Assembly: GCA_900170005.1 (NCBI GenBank)
Contig: LT827128.1
Coordinates: forward strand, 2,290,168-2,354,167
From: Gordonibacter massiliensis (ex Traore et al. 2017)
GTDB taxonomy: Bacteria > Actinomycetota > Coriobacteriia > Coriobacteriales > Eggerthellaceae
DNA: 64,000 bases
Direction of reading: 5' to 3'
Shown: positions 3,529 through 58,053 of the stretch, one piece after another
How the letters are laid out: each line of letters starts with the position of its first letter
Position numbering within the stretch: position 1 is the first letter of the stretch
Made by a program: the position numbers and the translations under genes
Notes under the pieces: model-generated
Database searches by the model: none
Told to the model about the DNA's origin: nothing
Seen by the model: only the letters and a program-made list of their open reading frames with translations

Positions 3529-4389
3529 TTACAGCAAGGAGTACACCAGCTGCTGCGTGTAGGCGTGTTGGGGGTCTTCCAGTATCTGGTCGGTCAGGCC
3601 GCTTTCGATGACGCGGCCGTCCAGCATGACGAGCGTGCGGTCGGCCAGCATGCGGATGACGCCCAGATCGTGGCTCACCACGAGCATGCTCACGTCGAAG
3701 TCGCGCCTAATCTGCTGCACGAGGTCGAGCACGGCGGCCTGCACCGACAGGTCGAGGCCCGTGGTCACCTCGTCCAGCAGCAGGATGGGCGGGTTGTTCG
3801 ACAGCGCCTTCGCTATCTGCACGCGCTGCTGCATGCCTCCGGAGAAGTTCCGAGGCGGTTCGGCCTCGCGGGACAGGGGGATGTTCACGCGTTCGAGCAG
3901 CTCCTCGCCACGGGCGCGCATGGCGCCCACGTTGCGGCTGCCGGCGGCTATCATCTGCTCGGCGATGTTCGACAGGCTGGAGAAATCCATGCGCAGGCCC
4001 AGGTAGGGGTTCTGGTACACCATGCCGAACACCGTGTTGCGAATGGCGCGCTGCTGCTGCGGCGAGAGCGCCAGCAAGTTGGCCGCCCCGCCGTCGAAGG
4101 GCCGGGCGCGCACGTCGCCTTCCGTGGCCTCCTCGTCGAAGAACAGGCATTTCATGAGCGACGACTTGCCGCTGCCCGACTCGCCTACGATGCCCACGAT
4201 CTCGGCCGGGAACACGTCCAAGCTCACATCGCGCACCGCGTGCACGGTGCCGCAGCGCGGGCACACGTTGCGCTCGAGCTGCGGCTCGGGGGCCAGGCAG
4301 TGCGGACAACCCGCCCCGAAGCGCTTCGACAGGTGGCGCACGGACAGGCAGGGAGCCTCGTCCGCGCCGAACCGCTGCTCATCGAGCAT
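3529..4389 (-). CDS. phnK: C-P lyase ABC-type ATPase PhnK with zinc-ribbon insert
   Basis: ABC ATPase of 286 residues with Walker A GESGSGKSS, signature FSGGMQQRVQIAKAL and Walker B ILLLDEVTTGLDLS. PhnK docks on the PhnGHIJ core complex and its ATPase cycle gates the C-P lyase. Between the first strand and the Walker A motif is a CPHC...CPRC pair (about residues 28-47), a likely zinc ribbon that E. coli PhnK lacks but which I believe occurs in other anaerobe PhnK proteins. Its ATG lies 11 bases inside the end of phnJ, implying translational coupling. Confidence 0.93.
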   Translation of the reverse strand: MLDEQRFGADEAPCLSVRHLSKRFGAGCPHCLAPEPQLERNVCPRCGTVHAVRDVSLDVFPAEIVGIVGESGSGKSSLMKCLFFDEEATEGDVRARPFDGGAANLLALSPQQQRAIRNTVFGMVYQNPYLGLRMDFSSLSNIAEQMIAAGSRNVGAMRARGEELLERVNIPLSREAEPPRNFSGGMQQRVQIAKALSNNPPILLLDEVTTGLDLSVQAAVLDLVQQIRRDFDVSMLVVSHDLGVIRMLADRTLVMLDGRVIESGLTDQILEDPQHAYTQQLVYSLL

Positions 4390-5398
4390 GGGAGGCTCCT
4401 TTCTGGTTGAAGAATGGGTCGCCGGTCGTTCGTAGGGTCAGCGAGGGGGCTTCTGGTGCCGAAGATTGCGGTGAAAGGCCGACGAAGCGTGCTTCTGCAC
4501 GTGAGGAGGCCTTGGAGCCGCAAAATTCGGTGCCAGAAGCCGCCGCAGCGTCGACCGGTTTCGTCGGCTGACAAGCCGACGAAACGCAAAACGCCGTGTC
4601 GTTGCATTGGTAGTACGTCTCGCCGGTCGTCTCGTCCACCAGCTCGTCGAGGTAGACGTCCTCGGCGCCGCATAGGCGGCAGCGCTTGCCGTCGAAGCGC
4701 TCCACCGCGAACGGGTAGTCCTCGAAATCGAGCGGCACCACGTCGGTGTGGGGCGGCACGGCGTAGATCTTCTTCTCGCGACCCGCACCCAACAGCGTGA
4801 GGTGCTCGGCCTGATGGAGTTTCAGGTTGTCGAAGCGCGGGATGGGCGACGGCGCCATGACGTAGCGGCCGTTCACGAGCACGGGGTGATCGGCGCCGGT
4901 GGTGGTCATGTCGTAGCGCACGATCTGGTCGAACAGCTCCAGCCACGCACCGGTGTAGTCGGCTTCGGCGTGCAGGCGCTTCGTCGCGGCCTCTCTCGGC
5001 TCGAAGCTGCGCAGCGGCTCGGGCGTGGGCACCTGCAGCACGAGCACCTGGTCGGCGCGCAACGGTTGCTCGGGAATGCGGTGGCGTGACTGGATGAGCG
5101 TGGCCTGTTCGGTGGCGTCGGTCACCTCCACGTCGGTGGTGTCGGCCACGAGCTTCTTGATGTTCACGGCGTTCACGCTGTCGTCCGAGCCCTGGTCGAT
5201 GACCTTGAGAACGTCGCTGCGCCCGATGATGGCCAGCGTGATCTGCAGGCCGCCCGTGCCCCAGCCGCGGCCGATGGGCATCTCGCGCGAGGCGAACGGC
5301 ACCTGGTATCCGGGGATGGACACGCCCTTGATGAGGGCGCGGCGAATCTCGCGCTTGGACGCCTCGTCGAAGAAGGCGTAGTTATAGCGCTGCTGCAT
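4379..5398 (-). CDS. phnJ: Carbon-phosphorus lyase catalytic subunit PhnJ (radical SAM)
   Basis: PhnJ cleaves the C-P bond of ribose 1-phosphonate 5-phosphate using a [4Fe-4S] cluster and SAM. The hallmark cysteines are present with E. coli spacing: CRLC, 21 residues, C, 5 residues, C (in CNDTAFC). The glycine-rich IGRGWGTGG segment carries the radical region. After CNDTAFC the protein diverges into about 55 residues of low-complexity sequence (VDAAAASGTEF...RAEARF...) encoded by a palindromic repeat inserted in frame, and the gene still overlaps phnK. It starts 17 bases inside phnI. The core should be functional; the tail is an oddity. Confidence 0.95.
   Translation of the reverse strand: MQQRYNYAFFDEASKREIRRALIKGVSIPGYQVPFASREMPIGRGWGTGGLQITLAIIGRSDVLKVIDQGSDDSVNAVNIKKLVADTTDVEVTDATEQATLIQSRHRIPEQPLRADQVLVLQVPTPEPLRSFEPREAATKRLHAEADYTGAWLELFDQIVRYDMTTTGADHPVLVNGRYVMAPSPIPRFDNLKLHQAEHLTLLGAGREKKIYAVPPHTDVVPLDFEDYPFAVERFDGKRCRLCGAEDVYLDELVDETTGETYYQCNDTAFCVSSACQPTKPVDAAAASGTEFCGSKASSRAEARFVGLSPQSSAPEAPSLTLRTTGDPFFNQKGASHAR
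4428..4590. repeat. Multi-hairpin palindromic repeat, copy A, inside the phnJ 3' end
   Basis: The element has the head GTAGGGTCAGCGAGG, imperfect 16-bp arms at 4448-4463 and 4526-4541 (14/16 complementary), a centre GAAGCGTGCTTCTGCACGTGAG, a linker GCAGCGTCG, and a terminal 12-bp hairpin with GACA loop at 4558-4585. The same order of parts recurs at 8836-8996 and 57849-58010. It is read on the minus strand as the C-terminal tail of PhnJ, in the same codon phase as the copy in phnE2. Confidence 0.75.
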
Positions 5399-6536
5399 CG
5401 GTTGCCTCCTTCGCTTCCAGCGCGGCTGCGGCCTCTTGGTCGATGTCGTGGTCGTGCGTGCCGCGCACGCTGGAGAGCTTCGATTGGAACGTCACGTAGT
5501 GCGGGAGCTTGAGGTGCGAGATGAAACCCGTGGCCTCCACGCCGTCCACGTGGTAGAGCACGAACTCCTCGTCCTCGGTGGGATAGCGCTTGTCGCCCAG
5601 CTCCAAGCATCGGTCGAGCACGCTCATGGCGATGGACTTCGTCTCGGCACGGCCGAGCACGCACCCGTAGCCGATGGCGAGCGAGAGGCCGTCTTCGGCA
5701 CCGTCGCCTTCCGACATGAACACGCTTTCCACCTCCGTCACGGGGACGGAGCCCAGGTAGTACGCGTTGTCCGCGCCGCCCGGCTCGAGCGGATGGTCCA
5801 CGGCCACGGCCACGCGACCTTGCCGCAGCTCGCCCACCGTGGGATGCGCCGGGCCGAAGCCGCGTATGGCCGCGTAGCCCAGCGCCTCCACGGCCTGCGT
5901 CATGCCGCGCGCGAGCGTCTGCAGGCGCACGGAGCGCGGCGCAGGGAACGTGAGCGGCACCATGGTGGCGTCCACGGGCTCGGCGTCGTCAGGTGCGACG
6001 GGGGAAACAAGCCCCTGAGCCCGCAGGTAGTCGAGCACGCGCGGGAGGGTGGCGGAGGCGCCCGCACCAGCGGAGGCCTCGTCGAAATGCTCGGCCAGTT
6101 CGGCGCGCTTCTCGGCCAGCTCCTCGGGGCCTTCCGTTTCCAGATCGAAGGCCAGCAGGCGGTGGCTGTAGTCGCGCGTGGCGCCCAGCAGCTGGCCGCC
6201 CGGCACGTCCTTGAACGCGGCCGACACGCGACGGGCGACGCGCATCTCCCCCGTGTCCACCGGGCGCGACACGTAGGGACGCTCGAGCGCGGAGCGGAAC
6301 GCGCGCAGCAGGAACACAGCCTCGTCGGGCGAGCCTTGAGCCTGCTTGAGCGCAAGGGCGGCCAAGCGCGGCGCGTACAGGGACGCCTCGCCCATCACCT
6401 GGTCCACCAGCTCGGGGAACGTTCCCTCGATCTCGTCGGTGCTCCAAGGCGACGACGTGCTCACGCGCTCGTATTCCAGCAGCTTGAGGCTTTCTTCGAT
6501 GGCTTTGCCGCCTCCGCGGACAGCTACGTATCCCAT
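5382..6536 (-). CDS. phnI: C-P lyase core subunit PhnI
   Basis: PhnI is the nucleosidase-type core subunit of the C-P lyase complex. With PhnG, H and L it couples phosphonate to the ribose of ATP, releasing adenine. The 384 residues start MGYVAVRGGGKAIEESL, the conserved PhnI N-terminus, and contain GATRDYSHRLLAFDLE and the LPHYVTFQ segment typical of the family. The ATG abuts the phnH stop with no gap, and the 3' end overlaps phnJ by 17 bases, so translation is tightly coupled. An acidic, Ala-rich stretch near residues 150-175 is variable. Confidence 0.95.
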   Translation of the reverse strand: MGYVAVRGGGKAIEESLKLLEYERVSTSSPWSTDEIEGTFPELVDQVMGEASLYAPRLAALALKQAQGSPDEAVFLLRAFRSALERPYVSRPVDTGEMRVARRVSAAFKDVPGGQLLGATRDYSHRLLAFDLETEGPEELAEKRAELAEHFDEASAGAGASATLPRVLDYLRAQGLVSPVAPDDAEPVDATMVPLTFPAPRSVRLQTLARGMTQAVEALGYAAIRGFGPAHPTVGELRQGRVAVAVDHPLEPGGADNAYYLGSVPVTEVESVFMSEGDGAEDGLSLAIGYGCVLGRAETKSIAMSVLDRCLELGDKRYPTEDEEFVLYHVDGVEATGFISHLKLPHYVTFQSKLSSVRGTHDHDIDQEAAAALEAKEATDAAAL

Positions 6537-7250
6537 CTAGCGAGCCTCCCCGACCAAGCAGGGTTCCGACGGCGCGGCAACACGATCGGGCATCGACGCT
6601 TCACCGACCGAGGCGTCCTCGCCCGCCAGCGTCACCTGCGAGCTACGCGGCACGGCTACGAGGTTCCCCTCGCCGTCCACCAGCACGATCTCAACGCCGC
6701 AGGGGAATTCGTCGTGCCGCGCGGCGCGGTCGCGAGCCCACTCGACACGGTCGACAGCGAAACGGTTCACGTCGGCCACGCCCGGACCGCGCACCTCCAC
6801 CACGTGGAGGGCCGGCTCGCCGCCGGCGGCCGCCTGCTCCGGTGCAGCCAAGCGGGCGCAACCCATGAGCACCGTCGCGCCCTTCTCGGGAGCCACGAGC
6901 GTGCCACGGCATGCCTCCAGAACGGCCTCGGCCGCCAACTGCGCGTCGGCGCGCGCCGGCACCACGACGAAGTCGGCCTCGCGCACGGGGAAGCGCATGG
7001 CATGCGTCTCGCCCGTGAGGTAGGCGGCCGTGGCGTCGGGCTCCGCGTCCACCACGCTGAACGTGACCGCCTGGTCAACGAACAGCCGCACAACCGACTC
7101 GAGGGCACCGTCGAGCGCCGCAGGTCGCACCGAATTGTCGGCCGCGCGCTCGATCATGCATAAGGCACCGGGATGCGCGAACGCGTCGAGCACGCTGCGA
7201 AACGCTCGCTGCGCGCGATGCAGTTCGGCGTTTTCCGTAATCATCATCAT
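6537..7250 (-). CDS. phnH: C-P lyase core subunit PhnH
   Basis: PhnH is a non-catalytic homodimerising subunit of the PhnGHIJ core with a PLP-transferase-like fold. The 237-residue protein shows the family's N-terminal RAQRAFRSVLDAFAHPG motif, which corresponds to the QxxFRxxLxAMxxPG signature. Three ATG codons in a row start it; the first (7250) overlaps the phnG stop as ATGA. The longer open frame upstream to 8129 is a shadow running through a palindrome and phnE2. Confidence 0.93.
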   Translation of the reverse strand: MMMITENAELHRAQRAFRSVLDAFAHPGALCMIERAADNSVRPAALDGALESVVRLFVDQAVTFSVVDAEPDATAAYLTGETHAMRFPVREADFVVVPARADAQLAAEAVLEACRGTLVAPEKGATVLMGCARLAAPEQAAAGGEPALHVVEVRGPGVADVNRFAVDRVEWARDRAARHDEFPCGVEIVLVDGEGNLVAVPRSSQVTLAGEDASVGEASMPDRVAAPSEPCLVGEAR

Positions 7251-7708
7251 GACTCCACCTTCATAGTTGAAAAATCCACCTTCGTCGCCGCGTTGCGGCG
7301 CGCGTCCTCGACCTCGCGCGCTTCGATGCGCTCGAGCTCCTCGCCCAAGCGCTCCTCCCAGCGGGCTGCGCGATGCTCGCCCGTCGCGCCCGCGAAGGCC
7401 GCATCCACCACAGCCAGCTCGTAGGCTCGGCAGCGGTCGCTGCCGAGCACCATGCCCAGTCCCACGGCCTCGCCCAGGCGCACCCGGCACGATGTCATGA
7501 GGGCCTCCCCCAAGTAGAACAGGCCGCCGTGCGCCGTCTCGCGCACCTTCACCATGACCAGCTCCTCGCGCGGCTCGTCGAGAACGGCCACGGCACCCAC
7601 GCCCAGCTCGTCTTCGACGTCGCGCACGATAGCGCGCGCCAACGTGGAATCCCCCTCCACCAAGGCGCGCGTCCGTTCGTACCGTTTCAACAAAACACCA
7701 ACTCCCAT
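7247..7708 (-). CDS. phnG: C-P lyase core subunit PhnG
   Basis: PhnG is the small subunit that packs on PhnI in the core complex and is required for ribosylation of phosphonates. The 153-residue protein carries the family motif VMVKVRETAHGGLFYLGEALMTSCRVRL with its conserved ETA..F.LGE..., followed by GMVLGSDRCRAYELAVVDA. It is the first gene of the lyase part of the operon, about 245 bp after phnE2 with a strong palindrome between, and overlaps phnH by ATGA. Confidence 0.94.
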   Translation of the reverse strand: MGVGVLLKRYERTRALVEGDSTLARAIVRDVEDELGVGAVAVLDEPREELVMVKVRETAHGGLFYLGEALMTSCRVRLGEAVGLGMVLGSDRCRAYELAVVDAAFAGATGEHRAARWEERLGEELERIEAREVEDARRNAATKVDFSTMKVES

Positions 7709-7801
7709 CTACCAAAACCAACCGACTAAATTCTTCTTCACGAAAGAGGTGTGCCACGAAGTTGCGCAAGCACCCCAGGTCAAAAAACGTTTCCACAAGA
7801 G

Positions 7802-7935
7802 GGATCTCGAGGCTCGGGCCCGGACGGTGCCCACCAAGCGAGTTCCGCACGAGCCAAACAGCCCAGCGGGCTGTTTGCGCGAGCCCAGGACTGCCCGAGC
7901 GACTGGGCACCGTCCGGGCCCGAGCCTCGAGATCC
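7802..7935. repeat. Perfect 32-bp inverted repeat between phnE2 and phnG
   Basis: Arms at 7802-7833 and 7904-7935 are exact complements over 32 bases. The 70-nt centre has CCAAGCGAGTTCCGCACGAGCC, similar in layout to the centre of the phnJ and phnE2 elements, and a 9-bp hairpin at 7856-7876. In mRNA this would be an extremely stable structure separating the transporter genes from the lyase genes, so it may set their expression ratio. The rest of the gap shows no ORF. Confidence 0.85.
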
Positions 7936-7953
7936 ACCCATCCGCAGGTCAAC

Positions 7954-9006
7954 TCAATGCTGCACGATGTAGCGCTTGCGCAACTTCGTGGCAACGACCT
8001 CCAGCACCACCGCCACGGCCAGGCACAGATACACGATGAGCCCCACCTCGTGGATGTTGTAGTAGAAGCTGCCGGCCAAGAACAGCTGATAGCCGATGCC
8101 GCCCGCGCCCGCCACGGCGCCCACGGCAACCGCGTTCACGAAGTTGATCTCGAAGCGGATGAACGTCCACGACAGCATCTCGTTCACCTTCTCGGGCACC
8201 ACGCCCTGGAACACCACCTGCCACCACGACGCGCCGCTGGCGCGCAGCGCCTCGATAACGCCCGCGTCCACCTCCTCGAAGCTCTCCGAGTACGCCTTCA
8301 CCAAATACGCCACGCTGTGGAACAGCAGGCCGATGACCGCCGCCTCCGGCCCCAACCCGATAGCCACGCTGAACACGAGCACCCACAGGATGGTGGGCAC
8401 GGCGCGCGCCACGCTCATGAGCACCTTGATGGCGTTGCTCGCGGCCCGGTTCGACAAATTCGACGCCGCCAGCAGGCCCAGCACGAACGCGATGACCGCG
8501 CCGATGAAGGTGGTGAGCAGCGCCAATGCCAGCGACACGAACAGCCCCTCCACCACGTCGGGCAGCGTGAAGTGTCCCGCGAGCCCCGGCTGCAGCATCA
8601 TGGTGACGAAGTCGCCCACGGCGGCCGCGAACGCTTGTGCGAACGGGACCTTGCCGTAGTTCATCGTCACCATGGTGAACACGGTCACCAGGGCCAGCAC
8701 CCCCAGCGTGAGCATGAGGGCCACATTCGGCTTGCTGGCCACGCGCGTCTTGATCTTGCCGGAGCGCGTAACGCGCGCACCTGCGGGGACGCGCGGGTCG
8801 TCTTCCGGTTGCAGGTTGTTCGTTGACCGCAGGTCGTTCGTAACGTCAGCGAGGGTTTCCGCAGTGCCCGAGATCGTGGGGATGGCGGGGGCGAAGCGTA
8901 CTTCGGTGCGCGAGTCCCCGGCATCGCCGCGAGGTCGGGCACTGCGGGAAGCCGCAGCCTCGGCTCTTCTGTCGTTCGGAAGAACGACAGAACCGGAAGG
9001 CGTCAT
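7954..9006 (-). CDS. phnE2: Phosphonate ABC transporter permease PhnE (second copy)
   Basis: A membrane permease for phosphonate import, paired with the preceding permease. Hydrophobic segments begin near residue 90 (VALMLTLGVLALVTVF), and the inner-membrane permease loop reads EALRASGASWWQVVFQGVVPE, the EAA motif that contacts PhnC. About 350 residues against roughly 260-280 for PhnE: the first 80 or so are hydrophilic, and residues about 4-55 are encoded by a palindromic repeat. The ATG overlaps the phnE1 stop (ATGA) with AGGAGGATCC upstream, so the long N-terminus is probably translated. Confidence 0.92.
   Translation of the reverse strand: MTPSGSVVLPNDRRAEAAASRSARPRGDAGDSRTEVRFAPAIPTISGTAETLADVTNDLRSTNNLQPEDDPRVPAGARVTRSGKIKTRVASKPNVALMLTLGVLALVTVFTMVTMNYGKVPFAQAFAAAVGDFVTMMLQPGLAGHFTLPDVVEGLFVSLALALLTTFIGAVIAFVLGLLAASNLSNRAASNAIKVLMSVARAVPTILWVLVFSVAIGLGPEAAVIGLLFHSVAYLVKAYSESFEEVDAGVIEALRASGASWWQVVFQGVVPEKVNEMLSWTFIRFEINFVNAVAVGAVAGAGGIGYQLFLAGSFYYNIHEVGLIVYLCLAVAVVLEVVATKLRKRYIVQH
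8836..8996. repeat. Multi-hairpin palindromic repeat, copy B, inside the phnE2 5' end
   Basis: Head GTAACGTCAGCGAGG, arms 8856-8871 and 8935-8950 (15/16 complementary), a centre GGCGAAGCGTACTTCGGTGC, linker GCAGCCTCG, and a terminal 11-bp hairpin with GGAA loop at 8967-8992. Translated on the minus strand it gives RRAEAAASRSARP...SRTEVRF, alignable in frame with the PhnJ tail. Confidence 0.78.
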
Positions 9007-9863
9007 AGGATCCTCCTTCGCACGTAGTTCGAAACAAGCTCGCAGGCGATGCACACCGCGATAATGGCGAGCACCACGAGCCCCGCCACGTCGTAGCGGA
9101 AACTCTTGTAATAAATGTCGAACACGAACCCGATGCCGGTGCCGGTGAGGATGCCGATGAGCGTGGCATCGCGGATATTCGTCTCGATCATGTACAGCAC
9201 CCAGCTCACCACCGACGCGATGCTCAGGGGTATGACGGCGTGCGCGACGATCTGCCCGTAGGTGGCGCCGGTGGCCCGCAAGGCCTCCACCGGGCCCGTG
9301 CTCATCTCGTCCACGCTCTCCAAAAAGCAGCGCGTCAGATAGCCGAAGCTCGTGAGGAACAGGGCGAAAAACCCGGTGAACTCGCTCTGCTTGAATGAGA
9401 ACAGCAGAATGAACGCCCAGGCCACCACCGGGATGTTGCGGAAAAGCGACGCGATGCCCCGCACGACAAGGGGGACGGGGCCGCCCACCCCCACCGAGCG
9501 CGAGCCGAGTACCGCGCATATATAGGCCAGGACCGCCGCCGTGCAACTGGAGGCGATCGAGGCCAGTATCGTCGAACCCAAGGCGGGAAGGATGGTTCCC
9601 AATTTGTCGAGGGAAGGGAGGGAGGGGACGAATTGAGTCGCCATCCACACGAGCCCGCCTGGGACATCGAGGATTGCCTTAATTGAATCGAAACCGACGA
9701 ACGTGCCCGACACGGCACCCAGCGCCACGAACACGACGGCGGCCGCGACGATGGCAAGCGTGCGTCGGCGGAAGAACGATCCGTCGTACGAGCCGCGCGG
9801 CACGGCTCCTTTGCCGCGCAGGCTCGCGCGCAAGCCAGCCGGCTGCATGGTGCGTTCGGTCAT
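9003..9863 (-). CDS. phnE1: Phosphonate ABC transporter permease PhnE (first copy)
   Basis: A 286-residue inner-membrane permease with about six hydrophobic segments, the first near residues 33-52 (TLAIVAAAVVFVALGAV). The EAA loop is VEALRATGATYGQIVAHAVIPL. With PhnE2, PhnC and PhnD it forms a phosphonate/phosphite-type importer. The ATG overlaps the phnC stop by ATGA and the gene end overlaps phnE2 in the same way. Two distinct permeases suggest a heterodimeric channel. Confidence 0.94.
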   Translation of the reverse strand: MTERTMQPAGLRASLRGKGAVPRGSYDGSFFRRRTLAIVAAAVVFVALGAVSGTFVGFDSIKAILDVPGGLVWMATQFVPSLPSLDKLGTILPALGSTILASIASSCTAAVLAYICAVLGSRSVGVGGPVPLVVRGIASLFRNIPVVAWAFILLFSFKQSEFTGFFALFLTSFGYLTRCFLESVDEMSTGPVEALRATGATYGQIVAHAVIPLSIASVVSWVLYMIETNIRDATLIGILTGTGIGFVFDIYYKSFRYDVAGLVVLAIIAVCIACELVSNYVRRRIL

Positions 9864-57343: not shown

Positions 57344-57848
57344 CCGCTCGCCGCATCGAGGAGGGCGTCGGGCATCGCCTCAAACCTATCAGCCTTCGAG
57401 AGCGCGGAATGAAACGGGGGCCGATCGCGAAAACGAAGGGATGCCTGGGCAGATCATAGGGGGGATCGCATCAAACGACGTCGAAAACGCCCTTCGTAGA
57501 CCCAGGCTTGCCCCGCCCTAACGTGGCGATCGCGGAACGCGCGCAACGACGACTTTGATGCAGCAACGGTTTCAGCGCAGCAAGCAGCCGAGGCTCGCGT
57601 TTTCGCGCTTCGCGCGAACGGGCGATCAGGAGATCGCCCCTACGGGGTCCATGAGGCATGCGGACTTTTCCGCGGGCGCTGGCGTTCGCGCGAAGCGCGT
57701 AATCCGCCGCCCAGGCTTCCCCGGCAGGCGAGCGCAGCGGTGCCTGCCATGCGGCCGCAGGCCGCATAACGAACTCCCAGGTGGACCGCGCGAGAGCGAA
57801 GCGACCCGCGCTTCGCGCGCAAGCGCGAAAACTGCCCGCCCAAGTTGG
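57344..57848. repeat. Gene-free region of nested palindromes
   Basis: High-GC palindromes such as CGGGCGATC.AGGAGATCGCCC, GGCAGGCGAGC.GCAGCGGTGCC, GCGGCC.GCAGGCCGC and CGCGCTTCGCGCG occur in series. GTTTTCGCGCTTCGCGCGAA near 57597 pairs with a complementary stretch near 57810-57835. No gene is supported. GC returns to the genomic level here, marking the right edge of the low-GC block. Confidence 0.65.
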
Positions 57849-58010
57849 CGTAGTAAGTCAGCGAGGCCCGCCCTCGTGCCCGAGATCGCAGGGATCGCGG
57901 GCGACGCGTACTTTGGTACGCGAGCCCGCGGGATCGCCGCGAGATCGGGTGCGAGGACGGGCCACAGCGTCGGCTTCGTTCCGGCGGCCGACAGGCCGCC
58001 GGAACCCGAA
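57849..58010. repeat. Multi-hairpin palindromic repeat, copy C (intergenic)
   Basis: Head GTAGTAAGTCAGCGAGG, arms near 57865-57883 and 57945-57963 (about 17/20 complementary), a centre hairpin GCGTACTTTGGTACGC, linker CACAGCGTCG, and a terminal 12-bp hairpin with GACA loop at 57978-58005. It is the intergenic member of the family seen inside phnJ and phnE2. Its minus strand is open in the same phase. Confidence 0.78.
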
Positions 58011-58024
58011 CCGCAACGTCGAGA

Positions 58025-58053
58025 GGTTCCGCGGGCCGTAGGCCCGCGGAACC
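58025..58053 (-). terminator. Hairpin terminator of htpG
   Basis: GGTTCCGCGGGCC and GGCCCGCGGAACC form a 13-bp stem with a 3-nt loop directly after the htpG stop. A T run is lacking. Confidence 0.7.

Follow-up and report, generated by a model that had tools for sequence, protein, structure and literature searches.

A composite palindromic repeat family of Coriobacteriales, placed mostly at stop codons and in a minority of copies read in one frame within genes

Palindromic repeats that lie in or beside genes are known from several bacterial groups. Rickettsia palindromic elements (RPEs) are hairpin repeats of about 105–150 bp that stand in frame in conserved genes and add a recurrent peptide, as outlined in PMC10969869 and PMC2229807. 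The second of these sources also describes YPAL/RU-2 of Yersinia (~168 bp), with internal inverted repeats, in-frame fusions and a proposed effect on the upstream mRNA. In the account of PMC3733652, repetitive extragenic palindromes (REPs) mostly adjoin the 3′ end of the upstream open reading frame (ORF), can provide stop codons and also occur inside genes of replication and repair, and CGTC-tagged REPs lack a dedicated transposase; the word "Actinobacteria" is absent from the main text of that paper. GTAG REPs are presented as palindromic, non-autonomous units at gene ends, some of which supply stop codons (PMC3733652, PMC3116915, PMC2817692), and PMC8040213 gives 250 palindromic candidates among 3161 human-microbiome RNA candidates. 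Here, we analyze a repeat present in three copies in a 64,000-nucleotide stretch of Gordonibacter massiliensis DNA (GenBank assembly GCA_900170005.1, contig LT827128.1, positions 2,290,168 to 2,354,167; hereafter the window). It is probably a non-autonomous family of composite palindromic repeats of Coriobacteriales, REP-like at gene ends and RPE-like inside genes. Its tight spacing to stop codons is its strongest and least explained feature.

The Coriobacteriales repeat resembles RPEs, as these are described, in its length, its many copies and the recurrent peptide that it adds in frame within unrelated genes, a likeness by description and not by sequence comparison with elements of another bacterial order. 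Unlike RPEs, it stands mostly after stop codons, combines a long with a terminal hairpin and is strongly oriented with replication. With the CGTC REPs of PMC3733652 it shares CGTC in the linker, 5′ of the hairpin on the head strand, as well as a location at ORF 3′ ends with some intragenic copies. The CGTC REPs of that account are 20–40 bp units with stems of 8–9 bp, the tag at the stem, and mostly head-to-head dimers, whereas the Coriobacteriales repeat has a spacer of 4–6 nt after CGTC, a stem of ~12 bp and a preceding long hairpin. Its likeness to GTAG REPs and REPINs with a REP-associated tyrosine transposase (RAYT), as presented in the papers above, lies in being a palindromic, non-autonomous gene-end unit; however, the hairpins of the aligned copies carry no GTAG tag (by reading), and the G. 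massiliensis genome (the own genome below) has no Y1_Tnp match. Internal inverted repeats and in-frame fusions are shared with YPAL/RU-2, for which PMC2229807 reports target duplications of 3–26 bp; none has been established for the Coriobacteriales repeat. The palindromic candidates of PMC8040213, likened by description alone, could include it. A literature search that took in few subscription journals and excluded supplements found no published description of the repeat. We treat it as a new family, composite and specific to the order, which acts like REPs and RPEs and is a member of neither.

Copies were located with a covariance model, R1, built from eight aligned copies. The element is composed of a lead, a head GTCAGCGAG, a long imperfect hairpin, a linker GCAGCGTCG and, in the taxonomic family of the window, a terminal hairpin of ~12 bp. 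We classified 139 copies by placement: 59 from the own genome, 40 from a congener (G068) and 40 from another genus (G053), the latter two sets being all matches at E ≤ 1e-9. Two copies without a recognizable linker were left out of the phase table, which thus holds 137, and genes were called with a custom codon-usage script instead of a standard gene finder. Over the three genomes, the upstream sense gene has its stop codon before the terminal hairpin in 76/137 copies and inside it in 21/137, or 97/137 for both classes combined. Coding was called past the linker in 20/137, and no adjacent sense gene was called in the remaining 20. When these leftover copies were read, L011, L076 and L178 proved to be coding and L168, L174, L192 and L201 belonged to the stop group; a few have a second hairpin separating the stop codon from the element, and one in G068 (L173) lies 3′ of a stretch resembling a signal recognition particle (SRP) RNA gene. 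The gap between stop codon and element has a median of −1 nt (n = 105), with 79% at ≤10 nt. On the element's other side the median gap is 48 nt (n = 95), with 5% at ≤10 nt. In family f2, 7 of 8 placeable copies lack a terminal hairpin and have the stop codon at the linker, and in family f3, 7 of 10 placed copies are ≤3 nt from a stop codon (both by reading); rows misplaced by the head finder (4/12 for f2, 1/11 for f3 and most for G341) were not used.

Some copies depart from this arrangement. L080, L082 and L083 of the own genome are antisense to it, and L084 follows its gene, not its replichore. At L042 and L051, the element starts after an ordinary terminator with a T-run (by reading). No T-run after the terminal hairpin was seen in the copies read, no terminator scan having been made. 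At L082 and L199, in two genera, a copy of opposite orientation stands directly before the start codon of a hisF-like gene (by reading), and the ribosome-binding site abuts the terminal hairpin. In a Collinsella aerofaciens record, also of Coriobacteriales, a 72% match lies between hisF and hisI, with its end 12 bases from the hisF stop codon.

The stems differ between copies while their pairing is kept. In the eight copies of R1, 26 of 57 consensus pairs carry compensatory change on both sides. A larger alignment, of the 120/139 copies that are 135–160 nt long, was made without structure. Its cells are paired in 94.8% of cases vs 35.4–42.8% with slid partners, and two-sided changes occur in 39/42 pairs vs 27–35 when slid. 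These values bear out the earlier note's view of the copies as one family with conserved structure. The consensus energy is −69.3 kcal/mol on the head strand vs −53.3 kcal/mol on its complement. In the long hairpin, 319 G-T cells stand against 80 A-C cells. A tandem wobble in two adjacent columns contributes 142 G-T and 4 A-C, and the ratio without these columns is 2.1 (95% cluster bootstrap 1.3–3.6). The terminal hairpin is balanced (G-T 24, A-C 29; ratio 1.13, 0.63–2.0). A UUCG apical loop is present in 47/120 copies, and tandem G-A loops are legible on the head strand. The head-strand energy, the G-T excess, the G-A loops and the UUCG loop thus assign the conserved fold of the long hairpin to the non-gene strand. 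A peptide provides no explanation for such an opposite-strand fold.

Where copies are translated, they obey a frame rule. Of the 20 coding-called copies, 19 share one frame, giving D-A-A-A-S or a close variant; the exception, L009, is an ORF that scores poorly and lies next to a better gene. Among the 19, L019 ends inside the long hairpin and the ORF at L191 is unnamed. Stops inside the terminal hairpin fall 14 times in the shared frame, 7 times in the second and never in the third. Stops ahead of the hairpin occur in all phases (26, 30, 20), which makes the rule one of translation of the element and not of the phase of insertion. Since two of the three head-anchored frames are mostly open (in 88/128 and 103/128 copies), stops alone are insufficient to fix the frame. 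Pfam places copies in or between domains of DnaX-, PriA-, HypF-, RecQ- and CarA-like proteins and of a Mur-ligase family protein, and short-form copies in an RNase R-like and a TauE-family protein. Among 23 aligned PriA relatives, 3 were unreadable at the site and 0 of the other 20 have the full insert, G075 holding a remnant that resembles a deletion scar. The RNase R short form is also present in G067 and absent from G068, G075 and G020; G065 carries a different insert at the same place. The earlier note had likened the repeat to the Rickettsia elements, and this comparison holds for the coding minority. It fails as the main picture because most copies stand at the 3′ end of genes, as REP repeats do.

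Orientation follows replication. By GC skew, the sense strand is the leading strand for 55/59 own copies, vs a background of 91/139 genes (65%) in twenty sampled stretches (binomial P 5.7e-7). Replichore borders were set where copies and GC skew both switch, and the sign of the skew agrees with them in 19/20 sample stretches (L299 differs). When the genome is split into two arcs by a fit to the copies, the split accommodates 55/59, 39/40 and 38/40 of them in the three genomes; single-copy flanks give a weaker signal, with the expected skew in 38/59, 28/40 and 33/40.

The earlier note had proposed a covariance-model search and had named the absence of further copies as the outcome that would speak against it; the search instead uncovered a large family. 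R1 has 94 matches in the own genome, many of which are the same palindromes on the other strand. With these reverse-strand echoes excluded, the 59 own copies comprise 48 of near full length and 11 short ones, of which four (L093–L096) retain little beyond the linker and terminal hairpin. In some short forms the long hairpin is gone between short direct repeats, as by slippage (L085, by reading). The 59 also omit the short copy L004, at 530547, together with two weak matches, at 2057978 and 3930033, that may be real. Across the taxonomic family, 100/138 genomes and 34/48 genera match at E ≤ 1e-4. The class and phylum samples were searched with stricter filters and few candidates scored per genome: 109/296 genomes of the class match, all but one within four families of Coriobacteriales, the sole match beyond the order being borderline (E 8.8e-5), and the 7/246 matching genomes of the phylum are every one in Coriobacteriales. 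Rfam 15 has 0 matches at gathering score in the window and three, all under gathering scores, in 10 loci with copies. An exact pattern has 0 matches in viral contigs, none in phages and a single plasmid match, which falls on a Collinsella aerofaciens record of 899,693 bases; carriage by phages or plasmids was rejected on these counts. Free-standing GTTCC hairpins serving as host targets were likewise rejected. Because 44 of 50 GTTCCG..CGGAAC places lie in or beside model matches (reversed control 10), the GTTCC hairpin is a module of the element. Several G053 copies are ~27 nt longer (L183, L178, L181, L185, L186, L198, L201); in L183 and L201, whose alignment was seen, the extra ~27 nt form a small GC-rich hairpin within the element, perhaps a second repeat.

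The three copies in the window are real and lie within 9 bases of where the earlier note had placed them, with their parts in the order it gave: head GTCAGCGAGG, long imperfect stem, central hairpin, linker CAGCNTCG and terminal hairpin. The copies and the features around the third are as follows.

4437 to 4588, head strand + (antisense to phnJ): copy 1, genome 2294604–2294755, R1 140.2 bits
about 4558 to 4585: terminal hairpin of copy 1, the copy being in frame at the PhnJ C-terminal end with the ORF open throughout
8845 to 8996, head strand +: copy 2, genome 2299012–2299163, R1 157.0 bits
about 8967 to 8992: terminal hairpin of copy 2
57857 to 58008, head strand +: copy 3, genome 2348024–2348175, R1 143.5 bits
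57978 to 57989 and 57994 to 58005: arms of the terminal hairpin of copy 3
58025 to 58053: second terminal-type hairpin, a 13-bp perfect inverted repeat between copy 3 and the htpG stop codon
58057 to 60045, strand −: htpG-like gene, from the ORF list and codon usage, named by reading its C-terminal sequence

Folding against dinucleotide shuffles gives z = −11.3, −9.9 and −9.1 for copies 1, 2 and 3, with 0/200 shuffles matching the native fold in each case. In the 3.95-Mb genome, 45 places match the head GTCAGCGAGG vs 5 for the reversed pattern, the 45 including non-copies such as L003 and L008. Copy 3 follows the htpG stop codon with one extra hairpin (58025–58053) intervening. To its left, window 57580–57856 is a mosaic of other inverted repeats of the GCGCGAAGCGCG type; a similar mosaic precedes several near-identical own copies, e.g., L013, L015, L024 and L032.

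Copies 1 and 2 belong to the phn operon, where the relevant genes are the following.

3529 to 4389, strand −: gene after phnJ, in the phnK position, from the ORF list; its start overlaps the phnJ end
4379 to 5398, strand −: phnJ, 339 aa; PF06007 at E 3.3e-136, domain residues 4–273
7954 to 9006, strand −: phnE2, 350 aa from an ATG overlapping the PhnE1 stop codon; PF00528 at E 1.4e-19, transporter domain at residues 174–338
9003 to 9863, strand −: phnE1, from the ORF list; its stop codon is 6 bases from the end of copy 2

Copy 1 sits at the phnJ–phnK junction, and the PhnJ residues beyond the domain are the element plus a short tail. Copy 2 is both part of the PhnE2 N-terminal tail, where the ORF is open throughout, and placed directly after the PhnE1 stop codon. 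As the earlier note had it, both copies are in frame and in the same codon phase, the linker being read as GAC or GAG GCT GCG GCT in each (one by reading). Relatives without the insert, which the note had suggested aligning, exist: 19/24 coriobacterial PhnJ tails have no element. It is in frame in 3/24 of these loci, namely, L204 (Gordonibacter An230) and L206 and L208 (Paraeggerthella), and the PhnJ of G053 has it as well (L133). Two Gordonibacter records (L203, L238) keep the lead at the phnJ end, with another palindrome replacing the body. This in-frame palindrome, after 6798, is of the GTCATCCTGAGC type in L203 and of the GTCCCAAAT type in L238. R1 was run on 48 of 80 fetched loci, and none of the 24 non-coriobacterial loci has a copy. 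Among named PhnJ relatives, the nearest is Gordonibacter sp. 28C (97%), in a comparison from which records very near the window may be missing. At the PhnE2 start, L203 retains in frame no more than the terminal hairpin plus a portion of the linker; the other relatives read have N-terminal tails of varied length without the element (L238 being masked there). The element-bearing tails of PhnJ and PhnE2 vary in length among relatives. PhnJ and PhnE2 are thus the mildest kind of insertion, and stronger cases lie elsewhere in the genome. Between phnG and phnE2, window 7752–7993 holds a nested perfect palindrome with 32-bp arms at 7802–7833/7904–7935 and 20-bp arms at 7752–7771/7974–7993, the latter an inverted copy of the phnE2 end; its core is absent from other loci among the 381 fetched (only L016, the same stretch, has it).

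The age of the copies was addressed by comparing sites. In the three genome pairs, 14, 12 and 8 reciprocal best genes lie beside copies. After pairs of <77% identity were dropped, some of which were matches of the element's own peptide, 12, 10 and 7 same-site pairs were left (one, L023, assigned to a neighboring copy), vs a chance expectation that we estimate at <1. At L070/L159/L188, one variant has been retained with compensatory changes; other sites hold different variants. Within the own genome, 65/1081 pairs are ≥85% identical, and in the 12 most similar pairs the right flanks are just 25–40% identical, that is, unrelated. The family is old, is turning over and has recently multiplied in the lineage of the own genome.

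The reading that we consider probable, a non-autonomous composite repeat family, draws on the conserved fold, the occurrence of copies in many unrelated genes, the placement at stop codons, the replication orientation, the single coding frame and the sites where close relatives lack the element. Such a repeat would spread via a folded single strand, antisense to the host gene, and its copies would persist where they are least harmful or somewhat beneficial. At a stop codon, a strong hairpin could affect the terminating ribosome as well as the end of the mRNA. A 2015 study in Mol Cell reportedly found ribosomes stalled by REPs lying within 15 nt of a stop codon. In linkers and tails, a frame that yields a benign, disordered-looking peptide may be tolerated. 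Several points weigh against this reading. Placement within a few bases of the stop codon goes beyond passive survival alone, and the same-site pairs across genera show that some sites have long kept their copies, an outcome that a host function would produce as well. Neither a target duplication nor a single-event pair of empty and filled sites with exact borders was found, the tails being too variable for borders. PF01797 (Y1_Tnp) has 0 matches in the own genome, while 71/138 genomes of the taxonomic family have one, and present-day RAYT-driven spread was rejected on the former count. Should the head strand be the active strand, its position on the leading-strand template would be the opposite of that in IS200/IS605 insertion, which weakens a simple Y1-type model. 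An integron attC origin was also rejected: TIGR02249 exceeds its cutoff in 0/21 genomes, its sub-threshold matches to other recombinases occurring in 21/21 and likewise in 14/14 controls. We regard it as unlikely that the repeat is of a new, replication-oriented kind structured as a single strand, with selection on the antisense fold of the leading-strand template, Y1-free spread and landing at stop codons by a novel mechanism, which might be, e.g., folded single-strand transfer at replication forks or RNA-templated insertion.

The stop-codon placement would itself be the function if the repeat were a host RNA module of gene 3′ ends (an mRNA stabilizer, or a device for translation termination or operon attenuation) copied by gene conversion. 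The tight spacing, the recurrence of this placement in other Coriobacteriales families and, in Collinsella, after hisF, the same-gene retention across genera with compensatory changes, as at L070/L159/L188, and the copy after the SRP-RNA-like gene all agree with such a module. Nevertheless, we find it doubtful, because the long hairpin has its conserved fold on the opposite strand to the mRNA, one genome has had a recent burst, copies lie within coding sequences, an ordinary terminator already precedes the element at L042 and L051, and three or four own copies (L080, L082, L083) are oriented opposite to their neighbors. The opposite-strand fold would instead be expected of an antisense RNA or a barrier to antisense transcription, in which the head strand is transcribed toward the gene end and the structure stops or processes transcripts. 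The excess of G-T over A-C, the tandem wobble, the G-A mismatches and the UUCG loop of the head strand are consistent with this, as are the near-constant antisense placement and the leading-strand bias. The argument is drawn from sequence and not from transcripts, however; the 60 bases before the head are conserved only in the last ~14, with no promoter-like block (no dedicated promoter search was made), and the terminal hairpin lacks a following T-run in the copies read. We consider this explanation quite unlikely. Selection for the protein product, with the DNA fold as a by-product, could account for the single frame of the accepted coding copies and for PhnJ ending in a related peptide in several genera, but most copies are untranslated, relatives of the same proteins manage without the element or have other palindromes (L203, L238), and short forms lacking the middle are tolerated (L085, L091), which makes a selected peptide module highly improbable.

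As a non-autonomous palindromic family, the repeat would add an order of bacteria common in the gut to the groups with protein-coding palindromes, of which Rickettsia is the best known, and its hosts would include proteins resembling DnaX, PriA and RecQ. Odd tails and linkers in annotated Coriobacteriales proteins would be explained by an unrecognized mobile or regulatory element, and R1 supplies a searchable model for a repeat that lies below every Rfam threshold. Two questions become testable: whether translation or the ends of mRNAs are under the control of a repeat at the stop codon, and whether spread of a folded strand is coupled to replication.

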